Assembly: GCA_013694685.1 (NCBI GenBank)
Contig: JACDBY010000222.1
Span: 1-22,778 of the forward strand
Direction of reading: 5' to 3'
Length of the DNA: 22,778 bases
Source of the DNA: Actinomycetota bacterium
GTDB taxonomy: Bacteria > Actinomycetota > Thermoleophilia > Gaiellales > Gaiellaceae
Shown: piece after piece, positions 4,536 through 13,912 of the stretch
How positions within the stretch are numbered: position 1 is the first letter of the stretch
Layout: every line of letters starts with the position of its first letter
The notes under the pieces: generated by a model
Told to the model about the DNA's origin: nothing
The model's input: only the letters and a program-made list of their open reading frames with translations
Databases searched by the model: none
Position numbers and translations under genes: made by a program

Positions 4536-5912
4536 GTGAGCGTGCGTCTCGCAGCGGAGACCGCGGCCGCGACGGCCGTGGCGCGCCTCTCGCGCTTCGC
4601 CGGCCGCGGTGGTGGCACGACGCTGCCCGGCAAGCTCGTCTGGATGCTCGATCCCGGTGCCGTCGACGCGCTCGCCCGGCGCCTGCCCGGGGGCGGCGTG
4701 CTCGTCTCCGCGACGAACGGCAAGACGACGACGACCGCGATGGCGAGCGCGATCCTCTCCCCCACGCGTCGGCTTGCGTGGAACAACTCGGGCGCGAATC
4801 TGGCCTCGGGGGTCGCCTCGACGCTCCTTCTCGCACGGGATGCAGAGCTCGGCCTGCTCGAGGTGGACGAGTTCGCGGTGCCCGAGGTGATCCGTCGAAC
4901 CCGACCGCGGATCGTCTGCCTCGGAAACCTCTTTCGTGACCAGCTCGACCGGTACGGCGAGCTCGAGCACATCGCCGAGCGCTGGCGCGCGGCCGTCGAG
5001 CACCTCGCGGACACGACCATGACCGTCGTCAACGCCGACGATCCGCTCGTCGCCGTGCTCGCCGAAGGCCGCGAGGCTGTACTTCGGTTCGGGGTCGACG
5101 ATCCGACCCAGGGGCGCGATGGGCTCCAGCACGCCTCCGATTCGAAGTACTGCGTCCGGTGCGGGCATCCGTATCGCTACGACGCCGTGTATGTCGGTCA
5201 CCTCGGCGCCTACCGCTGCCCATCCTGTGGTCACGCTCGGCCGTCACTCGACATCGCTGCACGGGAGATCGAGTCCCAGGGCCTCGAGGGGGTCGCGTTC
5301 ACCCTGACGGCACCCGGGGCGAGCGCGCGTGTGCGTCTCGCCTTGCCGGGGCTCTACAACGTCTACAACGCACTCGCCGCCGCCTCCCTCTGCCTCGCGC
5401 TTGGCGTCTCGCTCGATCGGATCGTCAGTGGCCTCGAGCGGTTCCGGGCCGCCTTCGGTCGCTTCGAGCGCTTCGCGGCGGGTGACCGCACCGTGCTCCT
5501 GCTCCTCATCAAGAATCCAGCCGGCGCAAACGAGGCTCTCCGAACCCTCCAGGAGGGCGACGTGCCGCCCGTCGTCGTCGTGGCGCTCAACGACCGCATC
5601 GCGGACGGCCGCGACGTCTCCTGGATCTGGGACGTCGACTTCGAACCACTCCTCGCCCGGGCCACGAGGATCGTCGCGACCGGCGAGCGCGCGGCGGAGC
5701 TTGCGCTGCGGTTCACGTACGGGGGCCTCGCGCGGGAACGACTCGAGATCCTGCCCCGGCTCGAGTCGGCGCTCGACCGCGGGCTCGCACTGACTCCGCC
5801 TGGTGCCGAGCTCGTCGTGCTCCCGACCTACACGGCGATGCTCGAGCTGCGTGCGACTGCGACCGCGCGCGGCTTCACCCGCCCGTATTGGGAGCAGGCG
5901 CGCGCCTCGTGA
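4536..5912 (+). CDS. murT: Lipid II isoglutaminyl synthase, ATP-ligase subunit MurT
   Basis: A 458-residue Mur-ligase-like protein. With GatD it amidates the alpha-carboxyl of D-Glu in the lipid II stem peptide to D-isoglutamine, at the cytoplasmic face. The ATP loop ATNGKTTTT is at 59-67, followed by the NNSGANLASG block at 83-92. Four cysteines (206, 209, 228, 231) form the zinc ribbon that interrupts the central domain in MurT but not in MurE or MurF. The DUF1727 C-terminal domain carries IKNPAGANE (325-333) and NDRIADGRDVSWIWDVDFE (352-370), which holds the aspartate proposed to act in catalysis. Length fits the family. Start is GTG, apparently leaderless. It overlaps gatD by 4 nt (GTGA), as expected for subunits of one complex. 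Confidence 0.96.
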   Translation: MSVRLAAETAAATAVARLSRFAGRGGGTTLPGKLVWMLDPGAVDALARRLPGGGVLVSATNGKTTTTAMASAILSPTRRLAWNNSGANLASGVASTLLLARDAELGLLEVDEFAVPEVIRRTRPRIVCLGNLFRDQLDRYGELEHIAERWRAAVEHLADTTMTVVNADDPLVAVLAEGREAVLRFGVDDPTQGRDGLQHASDSKYCVRCGHPYRYDAVYVGHLGAYRCPSCGHARPSLDIAAREIESQGLEGVAFTLTAPGASARVRLALPGLYNVYNALAAASLCLALGVSLDRIVSGLERFRAAFGRFERFAAGDRTVLLLLIKNPAGANEALRTLQEGDVPPVVVVALNDRIADGRDVSWIWDVDFEPLLARATRIVATGERAAELALRFTYGGLARERLEILPRLESALDRGLALTPPGAELVVLPTYTAMLELRATATARGFTRPYWEQARAS

Positions 5913-6670
5913 TCATCCGCGTCGGCCATCTCTATCCGGAGTACCTCAACATCTACGCCGATCGCGGGAACATCGCGGTGTTCCTTCACCGGGCGGCCTC
6001 TCGTGGCCACGAGTTGCGTGTCGAGCCGATCACGCTCGGGACGCGGCTCGAGCCGGGCGCACACGACCTGCTCTACGTGGGCGGCGGACAGGACCGCGAG
6101 CAGACGATGATTGCCCCGGATCTCGCCGCGCGTGCGGGCGCGCTCCGCGAGGCCGTGGAGGCAGGCGCCGCGCTCCTCGCCGTGTGCGGCGGCTACCAGC
6201 TCCTCGGGCGTGGCTACCGGGGGCGTGACGGATCCTGGCTCGAGGGCGCCGGCGTCTTTCCACTCGAGACCCTCGCCGGCGAGACGCGGATGATCGGTGA
6301 CGTCCTGCTCGAGAGCACGCTCGAGGAGGCGCCGGGACGGTCGATCGCCGGCTTCGAGAACCACGCCGGCCGCACCGTGCTCGACCCCGGCTGCGAGACG
6401 CTCGGACGAGTCGTCGCGGGATTCGGGAACGACGGAGGATCGGGCTACGAGGGCTGCAGGGTCGGCCGCGCGCTTGGGACCTATCTCCACGGCCCGCTGC
6501 TCCCGCGCAATCCGTGGCTCGCCGACCTCGTGCTCTCCTGGGCGCTCGCCCACGCGACGGGAGCCGGGCCTCAGCCGCTTACGCCACTCTCGGACGAGCT
6601 CGAGCAGGAGGCGCATGCAGTCTCGTCAGCGCGTGCGCGCGAGCGCGGTGGCCGTCCCGTGCGCTCGTGA
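5909..6670 (+). CDS. gatD: Lipid II isoglutaminyl synthase, glutamine amidotransferase subunit GatD
   Basis: A 253-residue class-I (CobB/CobQ-like) glutaminase that feeds ammonia to MurT. The nucleophile elbow is AVCGGYQLLG with Cys93, and the catalytic histidine is His194 in GTYLHGPLLPRNP. The N-terminus VGHLYPEYLNIYADRGN is typical of GatD. The frame is open from TTG 5888, but GTG 5909 is preferred because it overlaps the murT stop as GTGA and begins exactly where the family begins. The last 30 or so residues are Arg/Ala-rich and low in information. The stop is only 19 bp from the stop of the convergent Nudix gene, with no clear terminator between. Confidence 0.95.
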   Translation: MIIRVGHLYPEYLNIYADRGNIAVFLHRAASRGHELRVEPITLGTRLEPGAHDLLYVGGGQDREQTMIAPDLAARAGALREAVEAGAALLAVCGGYQLLGRGYRGRDGSWLEGAGVFPLETLAGETRMIGDVLLESTLEEAPGRSIAGFENHAGRTVLDPGCETLGRVVAGFGNDGGSGYEGCRVGRALGTYLHGPLLPRNPWLADLVLSWALAHATGAGPQPLTPLSDELEQEAHAVSSARARERGGRPVRS

Positions 6671-8952: not shown

Positions 8953-10023
8953 ATGGGCACTCTCGGCGACCGTCTCGCCGCACGCACGCTCGAGCTCGTC
9001 GACATCGCCTCCGAGAGCCTTCACGAGGCGGCGATCCGCGAGCGGGTCTGCGCGCTCGTGCCGGCGCCGTTCGCGCCGGTCTTCGCGGGTGACGAGGCGT
9101 TCTGCTGGGCGCGCGAGAGGCGCCCCGGGACACCGCTCCTCGTGCTCGCGGGTCACTACGACACCGTCCCCGCACAAGGCAACGTACCCGGCCGCATCGA
9201 AGACGGAGCGGTGCACGGCTGCGGGGCAAGCGACATGAAGGGCGGCGTGGCGGTGGCGCTCGAGCTCGTGCGGGAGCTCGCGGAGACCGAGCCCGGTCCC
9301 GTCGACGTCGCACTTCTGCTCTTCGGGCGGGAAGAGCTGCCGCCGAAGCACAATCCGCTGCCTGCGCTTTTCGCCGGCTGCCCGCTCGTCGGCGAGGCAG
9401 AGCTCGCGATCCTGCTCGAGCCGACCGATCTCACCGTCCAGGCCGGGTGCGTCGGCACAATCTCAGCGCGCGTCACCTTTCACGGCGTCAGCGGCCACTC
9501 GGCACGGCCGTGGCTCGCAACGAACGCGCTCCACCGCGCGATCGAGGGCCTCCTGCCACTGACCCGCCACGAGCGCCGCGAGGCGGTCATCGACGGGCTC
9601 TCCTTCTTCGAGGTGGTGTCCGTGACGCGGCTCGAGGCAGGGACGGCCGACAATGTCATTCCGGCGAGTGCGATCGCGACGCTGAACTTCCGCTATCCGC
9701 CCGATCGCGCCCCCGCCGAGGCCGAGGAGCTCCTGCGCTCGCTGCTGCCGGGCGACGCCACCTTCGAGCTGCTCGGCAACGCGCCACCTGCTGACGTCGT
9801 CGTCGACACGCCGCTCGTCACGGCGCTGCGGGCCGCCGGCGACTTCCCCGTCGAGCCCAAGCAGGCATGGACGAACGTCGCCGATTTCACCTCGCGGGGC
9901 ATCCCGGCGGTCAACTTCGGCCCCGGGGCCACGCGGTACGCGCACGCAGCCGACGAACGCGTCGAGGTGGGCGCGCTCGAAATGGCGTATCGCGCGCTTC
10001 ATCGGGTCGCGGCCGGCTCGTGA
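8953..10023 (+). CDS. dapE: Succinyl-diaminopimelate desuccinylase (M20 family)
   Basis: A 356-residue M20 metallohydrolase. It hydrolyses N-succinyl-LL-2,6-diaminopimelate to LL-DAP and succinate in the cytoplasm. Metal-site residues are visible: His68 and Asp70 in AGHYDTVP, bridging Asp94 in GASDMKGG, the Glu127/128 pair in FGREELP (catalytic base), Glu156 in LLEPTDL, and a late His in TRYAHAADE. The dimerisation or lid domain spans about 165-285, with His182 in VSGHSARPW. Sequence alone could also fit other M20 amidohydrolases, but its place before dapC and dapD supports DapE. It appears to be leaderless. It overlaps dapC by 4 nt (GTGA). Confidence 0.9.
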   Translation: MGTLGDRLAARTLELVDIASESLHEAAIRERVCALVPAPFAPVFAGDEAFCWARERRPGTPLLVLAGHYDTVPAQGNVPGRIEDGAVHGCGASDMKGGVAVALELVRELAETEPGPVDVALLLFGREELPPKHNPLPALFAGCPLVGEAELAILLEPTDLTVQAGCVGTISARVTFHGVSGHSARPWLATNALHRAIEGLLPLTRHERREAVIDGLSFFEVVSVTRLEAGTADNVIPASAIATLNFRYPPDRAPAEAEELLRSLLPGDATFELLGNAPPADVVVDTPLVTALRAAGDFPVEPKQAWTNVADFTSRGIPAVNFGPGATRYAHAADERVEVGALEMAYRALHRVAAGS

Positions 10024-11189
10024 GCAGAAACGGCCGCGGAGTGCCCCTCTCACCGATCCTGCGGGCGCAGACGACGTACCCGTTCGTCCGTCTTGCGGCG
10101 GCAGTTGCGGAGCGGCGCGAGCGAGGACAGGTGGTGATCGACCTCGGCATGGGCGACCCAAGGGAGCCGACGGATCCCGCGATCATCGAGGCGCTCCGTG
10201 ACGGTGTCCGGGCGCAGATGGGATATCCCGCGGCTGTCGGTCTCCCGGCGCTTCGCGAGGCGGTCGCCCGCTGGGCGGAGCGGCGGTTCGGCGCGCGCCT
10301 CGATCCCGACCAGCACGTGATCCCGACGCTCGGCTCCAAGGAGGCGATCTTCTCGTTCGCACAGGTCGTGCTCGACGTGGCCGGTGGCCGTGACACCGTC
10401 GTCGTCACCGAGCCCGGCTATCCCGTACCCGGCCGGGGCGCCGCATTCGCCGGCGCACGCGTCGTCGAGCTGCCGCTGCGGGAGCAGAACGGCTTTCTCC
10501 CCGATCTCGACACGGTCGACGACGACGTCTGGCAGCGGACGGCGCTCGTCTGGCTGAACACGCCCAACAACCCCACAGGTTCGATCGCGCCACGCCGCCT
10601 CGTCGAGAGGCTCGCCGAGCTGGCCCGTTATCACGGGTTCGTGCTTGCGTCGGACGAGGCGTACTCGGAGCTCTGGTTCGAGAAGCCGCCTCCCTCCGCG
10701 CTCGAGCTCGACGATTGGACGAACGTCGTCGTCTTCAACACGCTCTCGAAGCGATCCTCGATGACGGGTTTCCGAAGCGGCTTCGTGGCCGGCGACCCGG
10801 TGTTGATCGACGCGCTCCGGGCGTTCCGGCCGAACATCGGTACGGCCCCCCAAGAGTTCGTCCAGCGCGCCTCGATCGTCGCGTGGGACGGCGAGGAACA
10901 CGTCCGGCTCGCGCGCGAGAGCTATCGGCGGAAGCGCGACCTCCTGCTCGACGTCCTCGTTCGCAAGGGACTCCGAGACGCCGGCGGTCCCGCGACTATG
11001 TACCTCTGGATCGGCGTCCCGGAGGGCGAGAGCGCCGAAGCTCATGCCTCGCGGCTTCTTGCGAACGGCGTGCTCGTCACCCCCGGCTCGTACCTCGGAG
11101 CCTCTGGCGAGGGGTACGTCAGGTATGCGCTCGTCCCGACGTTGGACGAATGCGCCCGGGCCGCGGAGATCCTGGAGGATGTCCTCTGA
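10020..11189 (+). CDS. dapC: Succinyldiaminopimelate aminotransferase DapC (class I PLP enzyme)
   Basis: A 389-residue fold-type I aminotransferase. It converts N-succinyl-2-amino-6-ketopimelate plus glutamate into N-succinyl-LL-DAP and 2-oxoglutarate. PLP-site marks are GYPAAVGLPALREAVA (68-83), the Asn/Pro block LNTPNNPTG (179-187), Asp212 and Tyr215 in SDEAYSELWF, and Lys244 in NTLSKRSSMTGFRSGF as the Schiff-base lysine. The frame is open from 9867, but GTG 10020, overlapping the dapE stop as GTGA, is the natural start; GTG 10041 is an alternative. It joins dapD through TGATG. The function is assigned by operon context; class I aminotransferases are hard to separate by sequence alone. Confidence 0.9.
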   Translation: MSRNGRGVPLSPILRAQTTYPFVRLAAAVAERRERGQVVIDLGMGDPREPTDPAIIEALRDGVRAQMGYPAAVGLPALREAVARWAERRFGARLDPDQHVIPTLGSKEAIFSFAQVVLDVAGGRDTVVVTEPGYPVPGRGAAFAGARVVELPLREQNGFLPDLDTVDDDVWQRTALVWLNTPNNPTGSIAPRRLVERLAELARYHGFVLASDEAYSELWFEKPPPSALELDDWTNVVVFNTLSKRSSMTGFRSGFVAGDPVLIDALRAFRPNIGTAPQEFVQRASIVAWDGEEHVRLARESYRRKRDLLLDVLVRKGLRDAGGPATMYLWIGVPEGESAEAHASRLLANGVLVTPGSYLGASGEGYVRYALVPTLDECARAAEILEDVL

Positions 11190-11986
11190 TGAGCCTGCGG
11201 GAACGAATCGAGCGCATGTGGAAGAGCGGCGACCTCGAGGACGCGCCGATCGAAGAGGCTATCGAACTCCTCGATCGCGGCGAGCTTCGGGTTGCCGAGC
11301 CGCGTGACGACGGGTGGGTCGTGAACGAGTGGGCGAAGATGGCGATCCTCCTGTATTTCCGGTCTCGCAAGGTGCAGCCGATGGAGATCGGCGGCCTCCG
11401 CTATCTCGACAAGATTCCCGTGAAGCACGTCGACCCGAGCGCCGGCGTGCGCGTGGTGCCACCGGGCGTGGCGCGCTATGGAGCGTTCCTCGCAGAAGGC
11501 GTCGTGCTCATGCCCGGCTACGTGAACATCGGCGCCTGGGTGGGACCGCGCACGATGGTCGACACGTGGGCAACCGTCGGGTCGTGCGCCCAGATCGGAG
11601 CCGACGTCCACCTCGCGGGCGGCGTCGGGATCGGCGGGGTACTCGAGCCCCCCCAAGCAGCGCCCGTGATCGTCGAGGACGGAGCGTTTCTCGGCTCGCG
11701 GTGCGTCGTCACGGAAGGCGTCAGGGTCGGTGCGGGCGCGGTGCTCTCTGCGAACGTCTCGCTCACGGCGAGCGTCCCCATCATCGACGTCACCGGCTCC
11801 GAGCCCCTCGAGCATCGAGGTGTCGTGCCGGCGCGGGCCGTGGTCGTGCCCGGCACCCGACCGCGCGCGTTCCCGGCTGGGACGTATCAGCTCGACTGCG
11901 CCCTCATCATCGGCTGGCGCCGCGAGTCGCACGACGAGCGTCTGAGCCTCAACGAGGTGCTGCGCGAGTTCGAGCTCGCCGTGTAG
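11189..11986 (+). CDS. dapD: Tetrahydrodipicolinate N-succinyltransferase
   Basis: A 265-residue transferase close to the E. coli length (274). It transfers succinyl from succinyl-CoA to tetrahydrodipicolinate, the first step of the succinylase branch. The N-terminal helical part (1-95) contains FRSRKVQPMEIG. From about 96 to 225 hexapeptide repeats build a left-handed beta helix (YVNIGAWVGPRTMVDTWATV, AQIGADVHLAGGVGIGGVLEP, VIVEDGAFLGSRCVVTEGVRVGAG). ATG 11189 overlaps the dapC stop (TGATG). A longer in-frame opening back to 10715 is antisense noise inside dapC. A strong hairpin follows the stop directly. Gene order is the reverse of the reaction order (DapD, DapC, DapE). Confidence 0.96.
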   Translation: MSLRERIERMWKSGDLEDAPIEEAIELLDRGELRVAEPRDDGWVVNEWAKMAILLYFRSRKVQPMEIGGLRYLDKIPVKHVDPSAGVRVVPPGVARYGAFLAEGVVLMPGYVNIGAWVGPRTMVDTWATVGSCAQIGADVHLAGGVGIGGVLEPPQAAPVIVEDGAFLGSRCVVTEGVRVGAGAVLSANVSLTASVPIIDVTGSEPLEHRGVVPARAVVVPGTRPRAFPAGTYQLDCALIIGWRRESHDERLSLNEVLREFELAV

Positions 11987-12058: not shown

Positions 12059-12826
12059 CTACAGGTCGGTCTCTCCGACGTAGATGCGCTCCGCAGGCCC
12101 TTCGAGCGTCACCTCGCGTCCCCTGACCGAGACCGTGAGCGCCCCTCCCGGCATTGCGATCCGCACCGGGCTGTCGCACCACCCGCGGGTGACCGCGGCC
12201 GCGGCGACCGCGGCCGCCGACGACCCAGACGCGCTCGTCTCTCCCGCGCCGCGCTCCCACACGAGGACTGAGACCGTGTCACGCGGCTCGGGCCGGGCGA
12301 GCTGGACGTTCGTACGGTGAGGGAACGTCGGGTGGGACTCGAGAGCTGGGCCGAGCCGAAAGAGGTCGTCCCTCGAGAGCGCGTCGCGGAGGACGACGGC
12401 GTGCGGGTTGCCGACGTCGACCGGCGTCACCGCGATCCGTTCGCCCGCAACGTCGAGCACGAGGTCGTCGGCGACGATCGCCTCACCCAGTGACTGACGC
12501 ACCTGGCAGTCCCGGGCCGCAGTGGCGCGGACGCGGCGACCAGCGACGGTGATCTCGACCTCGGTCGCGGCGGTCGCTCGCAGCAGCCACGCGGCGGCGA
12601 TTCTCGTTCCGTTCCCGGACATCTCAGCCTGAGAGCCGTCGGGATTCCAGATGCGGATCTCCGCTTGCCGGTCGTCGTGTCCGACGACCTCCAGGACGCC
12701 GTCGCTTCCGATGCCGGTGTTCGCGTCACAGAGTCGCCTGATGCGCTCCGGGTGCAGGGGAACCGCCTCGTCCGCCATGACGAGAAGATAGGCGTTCCCC
12801 AGCGCGTGCCACTTCTCGAACCTCAC
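12059..12826 (-). CDS. dapF: DapF-family diaminopimelate epimerase with both catalytic cysteines replaced by serine
   Basis: A 255-residue DapF-fold protein. DapF converts LL-DAP to meso-DAP without a cofactor, using two cysteines as acid and base (Cys73 in the CGNG motif and Cys217 in the ACGTG motif of the Haemophilus and E. coli enzymes). Here the first reads EMSGNGTRI with Ser70 (codon TCC) and the second reads ERGAGETSASGSSA with Ser200 (codon TCT). Other family marks remain: ALGNAY with Asn11, GIGSDGVLEV, IWNPDGSQAEM, VDVGNPHAVV and PGGALTV. The frame is intact, so this looks like a maintained variant, not decay. It may be a serine-based epimerase or a relative with a different reaction. 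Start GTG 12826 overlaps the miaA stop by 4 nt. It converges on dapE-dapC-dapD, which supports a link to DAP. Confidence 0.85.
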   Translation of the reverse strand: MRFEKWHALGNAYLLVMADEAVPLHPERIRRLCDANTGIGSDGVLEVVGHDDRQAEIRIWNPDGSQAEMSGNGTRIAAAWLLRATAATEVEITVAGRRVRATAARDCQVRQSLGEAIVADDLVLDVAGERIAVTPVDVGNPHAVVLRDALSRDDLFRLGPALESHPTFPHRTNVQLARPEPRDTVSVLVWERGAGETSASGSSAAAVAAAAVTRGWCDSPVRIAMPGGALTVSVRGREVTLEGPAERIYVGETDL

Positions 12827-13740
12827 ATGGTGACGTTACCCCGCTCCGGACCCAAGCCGGCGAGCCGTCCGCGACGAGCGTCCTCGACGAGTGCGAGGAT
12901 CACGTCCGCGCTCTCGCGGCTCGGCCGATTCGCATCGATCGGAACGAGGCCGGGGATGCGTCGCATCCATTTGCGCTGGTAAGCGGCGTACCGGCGCGTA
13001 CGGGCGACGATCCGCTCGACCGCCTCGGCCTCGTCGAGCTCGGCGATCTCGCGCAGGCCGAGCGTCTTGGCGGCGGTCCGCGAGATCGGCCCCGCGAGTG
13101 CCGCTCGCACCTCGTCGACGGCACCGCGCGCGAGCATCTCATGTGTGCGCTCCCGGATCCTTCGTTCGAGCTCGGCCGCCGGGACCTCGAGACCGACGAC
13201 GAGCGTCGGTCGTCGATGGTCGTCACCCCACAGGCGATCCTGCCCCCGAACGAGCGATCGACCGAGCTCTGCAAGCTCGAGCGCCCGGCTCAGACGTTGA
13301 CGATCGTTCGGATGCACCCGCGCTGCTGCCTCCGAGTCGAGCTGGACGAGGCGGGCGTGGGCGGCGGCGGCGTTCCGGCCGACCTCGGCCGCGATCCTGG
13401 CCCGGATCGCTGCGGGTGCGCGCGGCGGAACGGCGAGCTCGGCGAGCGCAGCTCGCAAATAGAGCCCCGTGCCGCCCGCAACGACGGCGGCGCCGTACGT
13501 TTCCACCACCGTGTCGATCTCGTGGTGAGCGAGCGGCGCGAACTCCCCCACGCTCATCTCTCGATCGAGGCCGCGGAAGCCGACGAGTCGTGTCGGACCT
13601 GTCGGCTGGTTCGTGAGAATCGGGAGCCCTCGATAGACCTGCATCGCGTCGACCGAGACGACCTCGGTGCCGAGCCGCACCGCCACGTCCTCCGCGATCA
13701 GGGTCTTGCCCGTGGCCGTCGGTCCGAAGATCGCGATCAC
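12823..13740 (-). CDS. miaA: tRNA dimethylallyltransferase MiaA
   Basis: MiaA transfers dimethylallyl from DMAPP to N6 of A37 in tRNAs that read UNN codons; MiaB, encoded just upstream, then adds the methylthio group. The P-loop FGPTATGKT lies at the very start, followed by SVDAMQVYRGL with the conserved Asp, AGGTGLYLRAAL, the NDRQRLSRALE block and the late QRKWMRRI. I place the start at GTG 13740, giving 305 residues, close to the usual 300-316. The frame stays open to GTG 13866, but those 42 residues look non-coding and overlap a short ORF with a better ribosome site. No Shine-Dalgarno fits 13740 well, so the start is uncertain. The stop overlaps dapF (GTGA). Confidence 0.93.
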   Translation of the reverse strand: MIAIFGPTATGKTLIAEDVAVRLGTEVVSVDAMQVYRGLPILTNQPTGPTRLVGFRGLDREMSVGEFAPLAHHEIDTVVETYGAAVVAGGTGLYLRAALAELAVPPRAPAAIRARIAAEVGRNAAAAHARLVQLDSEAAARVHPNDRQRLSRALELAELGRSLVRGQDRLWGDDHRRPTLVVGLEVPAAELERRIRERTHEMLARGAVDEVRAALAGPISRTAAKTLGLREIAELDEAEAVERIVARTRRYAAYQRKWMRRIPGLVPIDANRPSRESADVILALVEDARRGRLAGLGPERGNVTM

Positions 13741-13759
13741 CTCGACCGGGGTCAGCGCG

Positions 13760-13912
13760 TCACCTCTGCGAGCCTCGAGTCGGAGCCAGGGCTCCCCGTC
13801 GTGTCGCGGACGACCGACCTGCGGGCTCGACACCCCCGCATGGGGTTCCCGGCAGACGTCCGTCACTCATGTCCCGGGCGGACGTGTCCGATGCGGCCAC
13901 CACCCGGGCCAC
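13760..13912 (-). CDS. Possible 50-residue leader ORF before miaA
   Basis: On the minus strand a strong Shine-Dalgarno (GGGGAGGAGG, 13925-13916) precedes GTG 13912. The frame runs 50 residues (VARVVAASDTS...) to TGA 13762-13760, ending 19 nt before the likely miaA start in another frame. The sequence is Arg/Gly/Ser-rich and matches no family I know, so it may not encode a working protein. Its place suits a translated leader that delivers ribosomes to miaA. Confidence 0.35.
   Translation of the reverse strand: MARVVAASDTSARDMSDGRLPGTPCGGVEPAGRSSATRRGALAPTRGSQR

Follow-up and report, generated by a model that had tools for sequence, protein, structure and literature searches.

A dapF gene on contig JACDBY010000222.1 of an Actinomycetota bacterium (assembly GCA_013694685.1; Thermoleophilia, Gaiellaceae) probably encodes a working diaminopimelate (DAP) epimerase that is independent of cysteine, uses two serines and is the only such enzyme found in its genome. 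The whole stretch of 22,778 nucleotides that was analysed is referred to here as "the window". DapF is the standard case of cofactor-free stereoinversion by a pair of cysteines; in the known members, a thiolate is reported to act as the base and a thiol as the acid (PMC8225329). Here, we describe a type of DapF in which serine occupies both catalytic positions ("Ser/Ser"), its distribution, and the explanations that can be offered for it.

Both catalytic cysteines are replaced by serine

The window dapF lies at 12059..12826 on the minus strand, has a GTG start and encodes 255 amino acids in a frame that is open throughout, with no internal stop codon. The first serine of interest, Ser70 (codon TCC; 12617..12619, minus strand), is part of the motif EMSGNGTR, and the second, Ser200 (codon TCT; 12227..12229, minus strand), is part of ETSASGSSA. 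A phmmer alignment pairs these motifs with EMCGNG and TLACGTG of Anabaena DapF (9mro). Counting along that alignment, which provided the Anabaena numbering used here and its mapping to the window protein, places Ser70 at Cys75 and Ser200 at Cys224, the catalytic pair reported for the Anabaena enzyme (PMC12039745). The codons and the aligned motifs confirm what an earlier note on this DNA had claimed, namely that both catalytic cysteines are replaced by serine. Judged by the two facing catalytic cysteines, the protein falls outside the Cys/Cys mechanism, since it has Ser70 and Ser200.

The protein scores 188.2 bits against TIGR00652, the NCBIfam DapF equivalog model (curated cut-off, 114.65 bits), and 142.4 bits against Pfam PF01678. 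Other Ser/Ser DapFs also exceed the TIGR00652 cut-off (188.7 bits for genome G212, 248.7 for Pyrinomonas and 210.2 for the Gemmatimonadetes locus L077); the model takes in Ser/Ser proteins without a flag. Against NF038284, the bifunctional DapF/glutamate racemase model, the window protein scores 61.3 bits, far short of the cut-off of 350, and MurI was found in the same genome. That genome is a draft (2.56 Mb in 493 contigs, 86.7% complete) in which the second, Cys-type dapF envisaged by the earlier note was looked for and a single DapF match was found. In a related record, G015, a TAG within the dapF match is the terminal stop codon.

The Ser/Ser type is spread over several phyla

We aligned 361 DapF loci and, after dropping 12 duplicates, counted 349 non-identical proteins, including one masked at site 70 and one truncated before site 200. 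These loci are the best-scoring ones plus others picked by hand and are not random samples. From the window's class and its relatives, 127 DapFs were read, out of overlapping sets of 57 and 244 matching genomes; outside the class, the reading covered 50 of 76 in the Blastocatellia class, 50 of 79 in the phylum to which a Gemmatimonadetes record (G275) belongs and 50 of 62 in the class that includes a "Deltaproteobacteria" record (G277). Of the 349 proteins, 184 are Ser/Ser, 157 are Cys/Cys, 6 are Ser/Cys and 2 are unreadable at one site. No residue other than Ser or Cys occurs at the two sites among the 349, and the order Cys/Ser is also absent.

DapF is present in 57 of the 61 genomes searched (the window's own and 60 relatives). 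The families of the class, labelled f1 to f12, bear on whether the serine pair is fixed in a clade, a check suggested in the earlier note. The window's own family, f1, has 42 Ser/Ser proteins among 43 DapFs (counting the window's sequence); the other one keeps Ser70 but is truncated downstream of it. Every DapF read is Ser/Ser in f2 (5/5), f8 (6/6), f10 (10/10), f11 (4/4) and f12 (2/2), giving 69 of 70 for the six families together, with the truncated protein as the remaining one. The pair is thus fixed, as read, in these six families, and also in the Blastocatellia class, where all 50 DapFs are Ser/Ser, including that of Pyrinomonas methylaliphatogenes K22 (Acidobacteriota). The Cys/Cys families of the class are f3 (13/13), f4 (4/4), f5 (8/8), f6 (7/7) and f7 (9/10, with one masked), while the 15 DapFs of f9 comprise 10 Cys/Cys and 5 Ser/Cys. 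Further away, Ser/Ser accounts for 14 of the 50 DapFs read from the phylum of G275 and for 45 of the 50 from the class of G277. A plain search for relatives gave, among its best 80 loci, 64 Cys/Cys, 14 Ser/Ser, 1 Ser/Cys and 1 truncated DapF. The Ser/Ser type also occurs in G006, a genome from the same genus as the window's and presumed to be Gaiella occulta. The Ser/Ser type therefore occurs across several phyla, and the idea that it is a peculiarity of one genome does not hold. No report of natural Ser/Ser DapFs was found in the literature, as judged from titles and abstracts, with subscription papers mostly outside the search.

Mixed DapFs with Ser first and Cys second are L151, L153, L154, L156 and L159 in f9, and L053/L277 in Chloroflexi; these natural Ser/Cys proteins are possible intermediates between the two types. 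A subgroup of f1 has short Ser/Ser DapFs, with matched stretches of 220–233 amino acids (G007, G009, G013, G014, G017, G018, G020, G021, G024, G025, G027, G033 and G035).

The DAP-binding site is conserved

All 184 Ser/Ser proteins keep N11, N61, D63, G64, G71, N72, G73, R75, N140, P141, N173, E191, R192, T197 and G201. In Anabaena DapF, N13 is reported to hold the proximal amine of DAP, and N66, N164, N197, E215 and R216 the distal amine and carboxylate (PMC12039745). The counterparts of these residues are N11, N61, N140, N173, E191 and R192, such that the residues binding the proximal and distal ends of DAP are present in 184 of 184 Ser/Ser proteins. Under decay, the catalytic sites would be expected to drift to other residues; since only Ser and Cys are seen, decay is not indicated, and the earlier note's argument against it is now strongly supported.

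The two catalytic columns are the only ones that fully separate Ser/Ser from Cys/Cys proteins. E17 (131/184) and Ser203 (105/184) are enriched in the Ser/Ser type without being universal, and the window protein has Met17. Comparing the columns of the two types revealed no candidate general base, acidic or basic and newly invariant, that might replace the thiols, and this explanation was rejected. General loss of cysteine as oxidation-proofing is also unsupported: within the aligned region, the other cysteines average 4.2 in Ser/Ser and 3.6 in Cys/Cys proteins. That region is free of cysteine in 8 of the 184 Ser/Ser proteins.

Some of the Cys/Cys DapF-like proteins from the phylum of G275 have CGNA and ERGVEGET-type motifs, with Leu after the motif (L345-L348, L350-L355, L357-L360, L390 and others). 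In the Cys/Cys set, position 75 is Leu in 29 proteins, and Asn140 is missing from 30. From their sequences, the CGNA/ERGVEGET-type proteins may not be DAP epimerases, though they score above the DapF cut-off.

Predicted structure

An AlphaFold2 model of the window DapF, for which the protein was aligned with 38 relatives taken from named records, has a mean predicted local distance difference test (pLDDT) score of 96.9 and a predicted template modelling (pTM) score of 0.93. Ser70 directly precedes helix 71-85 in the model, and Ser200 directly precedes helix 201-213; work on HisR describes the catalytic residues of this fold as placed at helix N-termini (PMC11602996). The top 26 Foldseek matches are all DapFs except for two chains of O-ureidoserine racemase, and of the 50 matches listed, 9mro, the inhibitor-bound Anabaena DapF, has the highest query TM-score (0.93). 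Both the model and its matches to solved DapFs show the DapF-like two-domain fold. No natural Ser/Ser DapF was found among 17 sequence matches in the PDB, as judged by names and two alignments.

Evolutionary history

We built a tree of 140 representatives after removing the two catalytic columns. On this tree, four changes are needed to account for the Ser/Ser label, at least two of them forced by starred branches. Placing all Ser/Ser proteins in a single clade costs 51.7 log-likelihood units and is not rejected by the approximately unbiased test (p 0.109). These results suggest two or more switches between the types, or transfers. The two sites mostly change together, with few Ser/Cys proteins and no Cys/Ser proteins, which suggests a mutual dependence between the two residues.

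Proposed synthesis and use of meso-DAP

We propose that DapF would take LL-DAP from the pathway encoded by the facing genes dapE-dapC-dapD and convert it to meso-DAP, which would then serve lysine synthesis (LysA) and peptidoglycan synthesis (MurE). In place of the thiol/thiolate pair, the two serines would remove the alpha-carbon proton and return one from the opposite face, aided by the helix N-termini and by a closed, water-poor site. The proposal that serine acts as acid and base draws on the position and exact conservation of the pair, and the proposal that meso-DAP is produced draws on the pathway and the chemotype.

Every listed genome of f1, f2, f8, f10, f11 and f12 has 0 or 1 copy of dapF. 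As for alternatives to this DapF, no second dapF was found in these families, and 2 of the 260 class genomes have a DAP dehydrogenase match above its cut-off; no search was made for other racemases that might make meso-DAP. The two genomes are G086, with a Cys/Cys DapF, and G258, a member of f8 with an unread DapF. None of 78 genomes of the Blastocatellia class has a DAP dehydrogenase match above the cut-off.

The LysA enzyme uses meso-DAP. A lysA match is present in 115 of 120 class genomes, with 112 above the cut-off. In the window's own genome, only the C-terminal part of lysA is seen, at a contig end. In a genome of the same genus, the lysA match (G004:C1:879886-881101) is in two pieces, perhaps because of a frameshift or an assembly indel. 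The MurE motif is DNPR in 22 of 25 loci, DNSR in G037 (a Ser/Ser genome) and DDCY in G065 and G070. Among the 18 Ser/Ser genomes tested, 17 have DNPR and 1 has DNSR. Both DDCY MurEs (L266 in G065 and L269 in G070) are from f9, and the DapF of G070 is of the mixed Ser/Cys type; f9 may thus have a different residue at the third position of the peptidoglycan stem.

Direct information on wall chemistry is available for relatives. The peptidoglycan of Conexibacter woesei is reported to be of type A1gamma with meso-DAP, and meso-DAP is given for all Solirubrobacterales (PMC3035278); it is also reported for a Solirubrobacter strain (PMC10722151). Genome G212 (f10), presumed to be C. woesei and outside the 120 genomes searched for lysA, is a single contig with one DapF match, which is Ser/Ser, and a MurE with DNPR; it has no DAP dehydrogenase above the cut-off, the three matches being weak and partial at ~22 bits. 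No report of the wall type of Gaiella was found in the literature searched.

A MurI match is absent from 13 of 120 genomes, 7 of which belong to the Ser/Ser families f10 (G106, G134, G145), f11 (G148, G159) and f12 (G167, G169). In these MurI-less genomes of Ser/Ser families, D-glutamate might come from DapF as a second product, which is the case in Chlamydia, or from a D-amino acid transaminase.

Comparison with known enzymes

The Ser/Ser type resembles the Cys/Cys DapFs (TIGR00652; 9mro, 1gqz, 8qzy, 5m47) in fold, DAP-binding residues, catalytic positions and pathway neighbours, and differs from them in having both cysteines replaced by serine and in relaxed conservation of H142 and Gly203. 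Unlike Corynebacterium glutamicum DapF, for which a disulfide switch is reported (PMC5296763), it has no thiols at the two sites. A single Cys-to-Ser mutation in DapF is reported to hinder catalysis and to serve crystallisation (PMC12039745). In the Haemophilus influenzae DapF mutants C73S (2q9h) and C217S (2q9j), serine is artificial and occupies one site, whereas in the Ser/Ser type it is natural, conserved and present at both. Koo and Blanchard are said to have studied these two mutants. Natural replacements occur elsewhere too, including in the human trans-3-hydroxyproline enzyme, a dehydratase. Like EcL-DER and MMP0739, this enzyme is described as carrying a hydroxyl residue, Thr, in place of a catalytic cysteine (PMC8142540); in these three, one cysteine of the pair is replaced, whereas in Ser/Ser DapF both are. 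EcL-DER is reported to work one way, and MMP0739 is predicted to (PMC8142540).

Weighing the explanations

Several points weigh against a working Ser/Ser epimerase. As a base, serine is much weaker than cysteine. A single Cys-to-Ser change reportedly leaves PddB with <0.1% activity, with the same reported for Mycobacterium tuberculosis DapF (PMC8225329), and the activity of HisR is described as greatly reduced by such a change (PMC11602996). H142 is present in 157 of 157 Cys/Cys proteins and 139 of 184 Ser/Ser proteins; Gly203, also present in 157 of 157 Cys/Cys proteins, is replaced in much of the Ser/Ser set (Ser 105, Gly 59, Cys 19, Ala 1). This relaxation implies that the Ser/Ser active site is somewhat altered. 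G258 has a DAP dehydrogenase and belongs to a family, f8, in which all six DapFs read are Ser/Ser. Lastly, we infer that G212 is C. woesei, which limits the meso-DAP argument.

The earlier note had left three options open: a serine-based epimerase, an enzyme making a different product, and a wall that keeps LL-DAP. The first is the best supported, and the other two are disfavoured. The fixed pair, the preserved DAP site, the single dapF, the rarity of the dehydrogenase and the meso-DAP of C. woesei together make it unlikely that the gene is decaying, that a normal copy lies hidden or that the wall keeps LL-DAP. A dead copy beside a normal dapF, which together with Cys-type close relatives would have told against the note, was rejected for the class, where the Ser/Ser families have 0 or 1 dapF per genome and 42 of 43 DapFs in f1 are Ser/Ser. 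Elsewhere there is an exception: the genome record G276 ("Deltaproteobacteria" NP36) contains two DapFs, one Cys/Cys and the other Ser/Ser (L276, L282).

The alternative that retains some weight, though we consider it unlikely, is that another enzyme, an unrecognised racemase or transaminase, makes meso-DAP, leaving Ser/Ser DapF to bind DAP without converting it or to play a minor or regulatory part. The growth of E. coli dapF null mutants counts in its favour. So do the near-complete loss of activity on Cys-to-Ser change in the relatives studied (PMC8225329, PMC11602996) and a second role of E. coli DapF, RppH binding, indicated by the titles of a paper and of PDB entries. However, a replacement enzyme would be required in Thermoleophilia, Blastocatellia and others, all of which keep the DAP site and both serines, and DAP dehydrogenase is nearly absent (2/260 class genomes; 0/78 in the Blastocatellia class). 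A different or additional substrate, or elimination instead of epimerisation of the kind known from some racemase relatives with an altered cysteine, is more improbable still. Elimination would need a beta leaving group, which LL-DAP lacks; the distal amino and carboxyl groups of DAP are held by residues that do not vary (184/184); and dapF and dapD face each other in 22 of the 25 loci from the window's family. Set against this are the one-way conversion of EcL-DER, in which Thr replaces Cys (PMC8142540), and the MurI-less genomes of f10, f11 and f12, where a broader substrate range is possible.

We give very little credence to the proposal that LL-DAP stays in the peptidoglycan and DapF is a relic. 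Some Actinomycetota do have LL-DAP walls. However, exact conservation of the serines and of the full site in 184 of 184 proteins is unlike decay, lysA is matched in 115 of 120 class genomes, the MurE motif is DNPR in 17 of 18 Ser/Ser genomes, and meso-DAP is reported for Solirubrobacterales, including C. woesei, the presumed identity of G212 (PMC3035278), and for Solirubrobacter (PMC10722151). Errors in sequencing or assembly, and codon reassignment, can be set aside almost completely. The window does come from a draft genome of 493 contigs, but the pair recurs in many independent genomes, including the single-contig G212 and P. methylaliphatogenes K22, and both serine codon families (TCN and AGY) occur at both sites in Ser/Ser dapFs; together, these observations rule out assembly error and codon reassignment.

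Beyond the reading that the window gene encodes a functional epimerase, we lean slightly towards a broader claim: that Ser/Ser DapFs are true serine-pair epimerases, whose two hydroxyls carry out 1,1-proton transfer at the alpha-carbon without thiol or cofactor, that the double replacement arose or was passed on repeatedly, and that meso-DAP synthesis would thereby be insensitive to oxidants and thiol-directed DapF inhibitors.

Genomic neighbourhood

The nearest neighbour of dapF in the window is miaA (12823..13866, minus strand; coordinates of the open reading frame as listed, the true start possibly lying further in). The miaA stop codon and the dapF start codon overlap as GTGA at 12823-12826, and miaA is the nearest neighbour in all 25 same-family loci fetched with flanks. 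MiaA scores 167 bits against Pfam IPPT, well above the Pfam cut-off, and 143.2 bits against NCBIfam miaA, slightly below the cut-off of 148.65.

On the other side, three plus-strand genes face dapF. The closest is dapD, encoding tetrahydrodipicolinate N-succinyltransferase (11189..11986; ATG at 11189), whose product scores 312.9 bits against NF008808 (cut-off, 204) when scanned from 11252, that is, minus its first 21 residues. It is preceded by dapC, encoding succinyl-DAP aminotransferase (10020..11189; GTG at 10020, in a listed reading frame that begins at 9867); scanned from 9867, DapC scores 387.8 bits against its best family, TIGR03537, under the cut-off of 453.6. The dapC GTG overlaps, again as GTGA, the stop codon of dapE, encoding succinyl-DAP desuccinylase (8953..10023; TIGR01900, 324.1 bits; cut-off, 304.2). 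The dapE product makes LL-DAP, the DapF substrate. With the open dapF frame and the profile matches, these data bear out the earlier note's description of the frame, the substrate-binding motifs and the linkage to miaA and dapE-dapC-dapD as intact. Elsewhere in the window, at 4536-6670, a MurT-like ligase is followed by an overlapping GATase_3 protein; we take this to be the kind of pair that amidates the D-glutamate of lipid II.

Implications

If Ser/Ser DapFs are serine-pair epimerases, a conserved serine pair in organisms with meso-DAP would mean that a thiolate is not required for this reaction, and comparison of the two types could address how a carbon with a pKa of ~29 is deprotonated. 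Organisms with the Ser/Ser type would also be predicted to resist thiol-directed DapF inhibitors, such as aziridines and iodoacetamide, as well as the inactivation by H2O2 that is reported for C. glutamicum DapF (PMC5296763).
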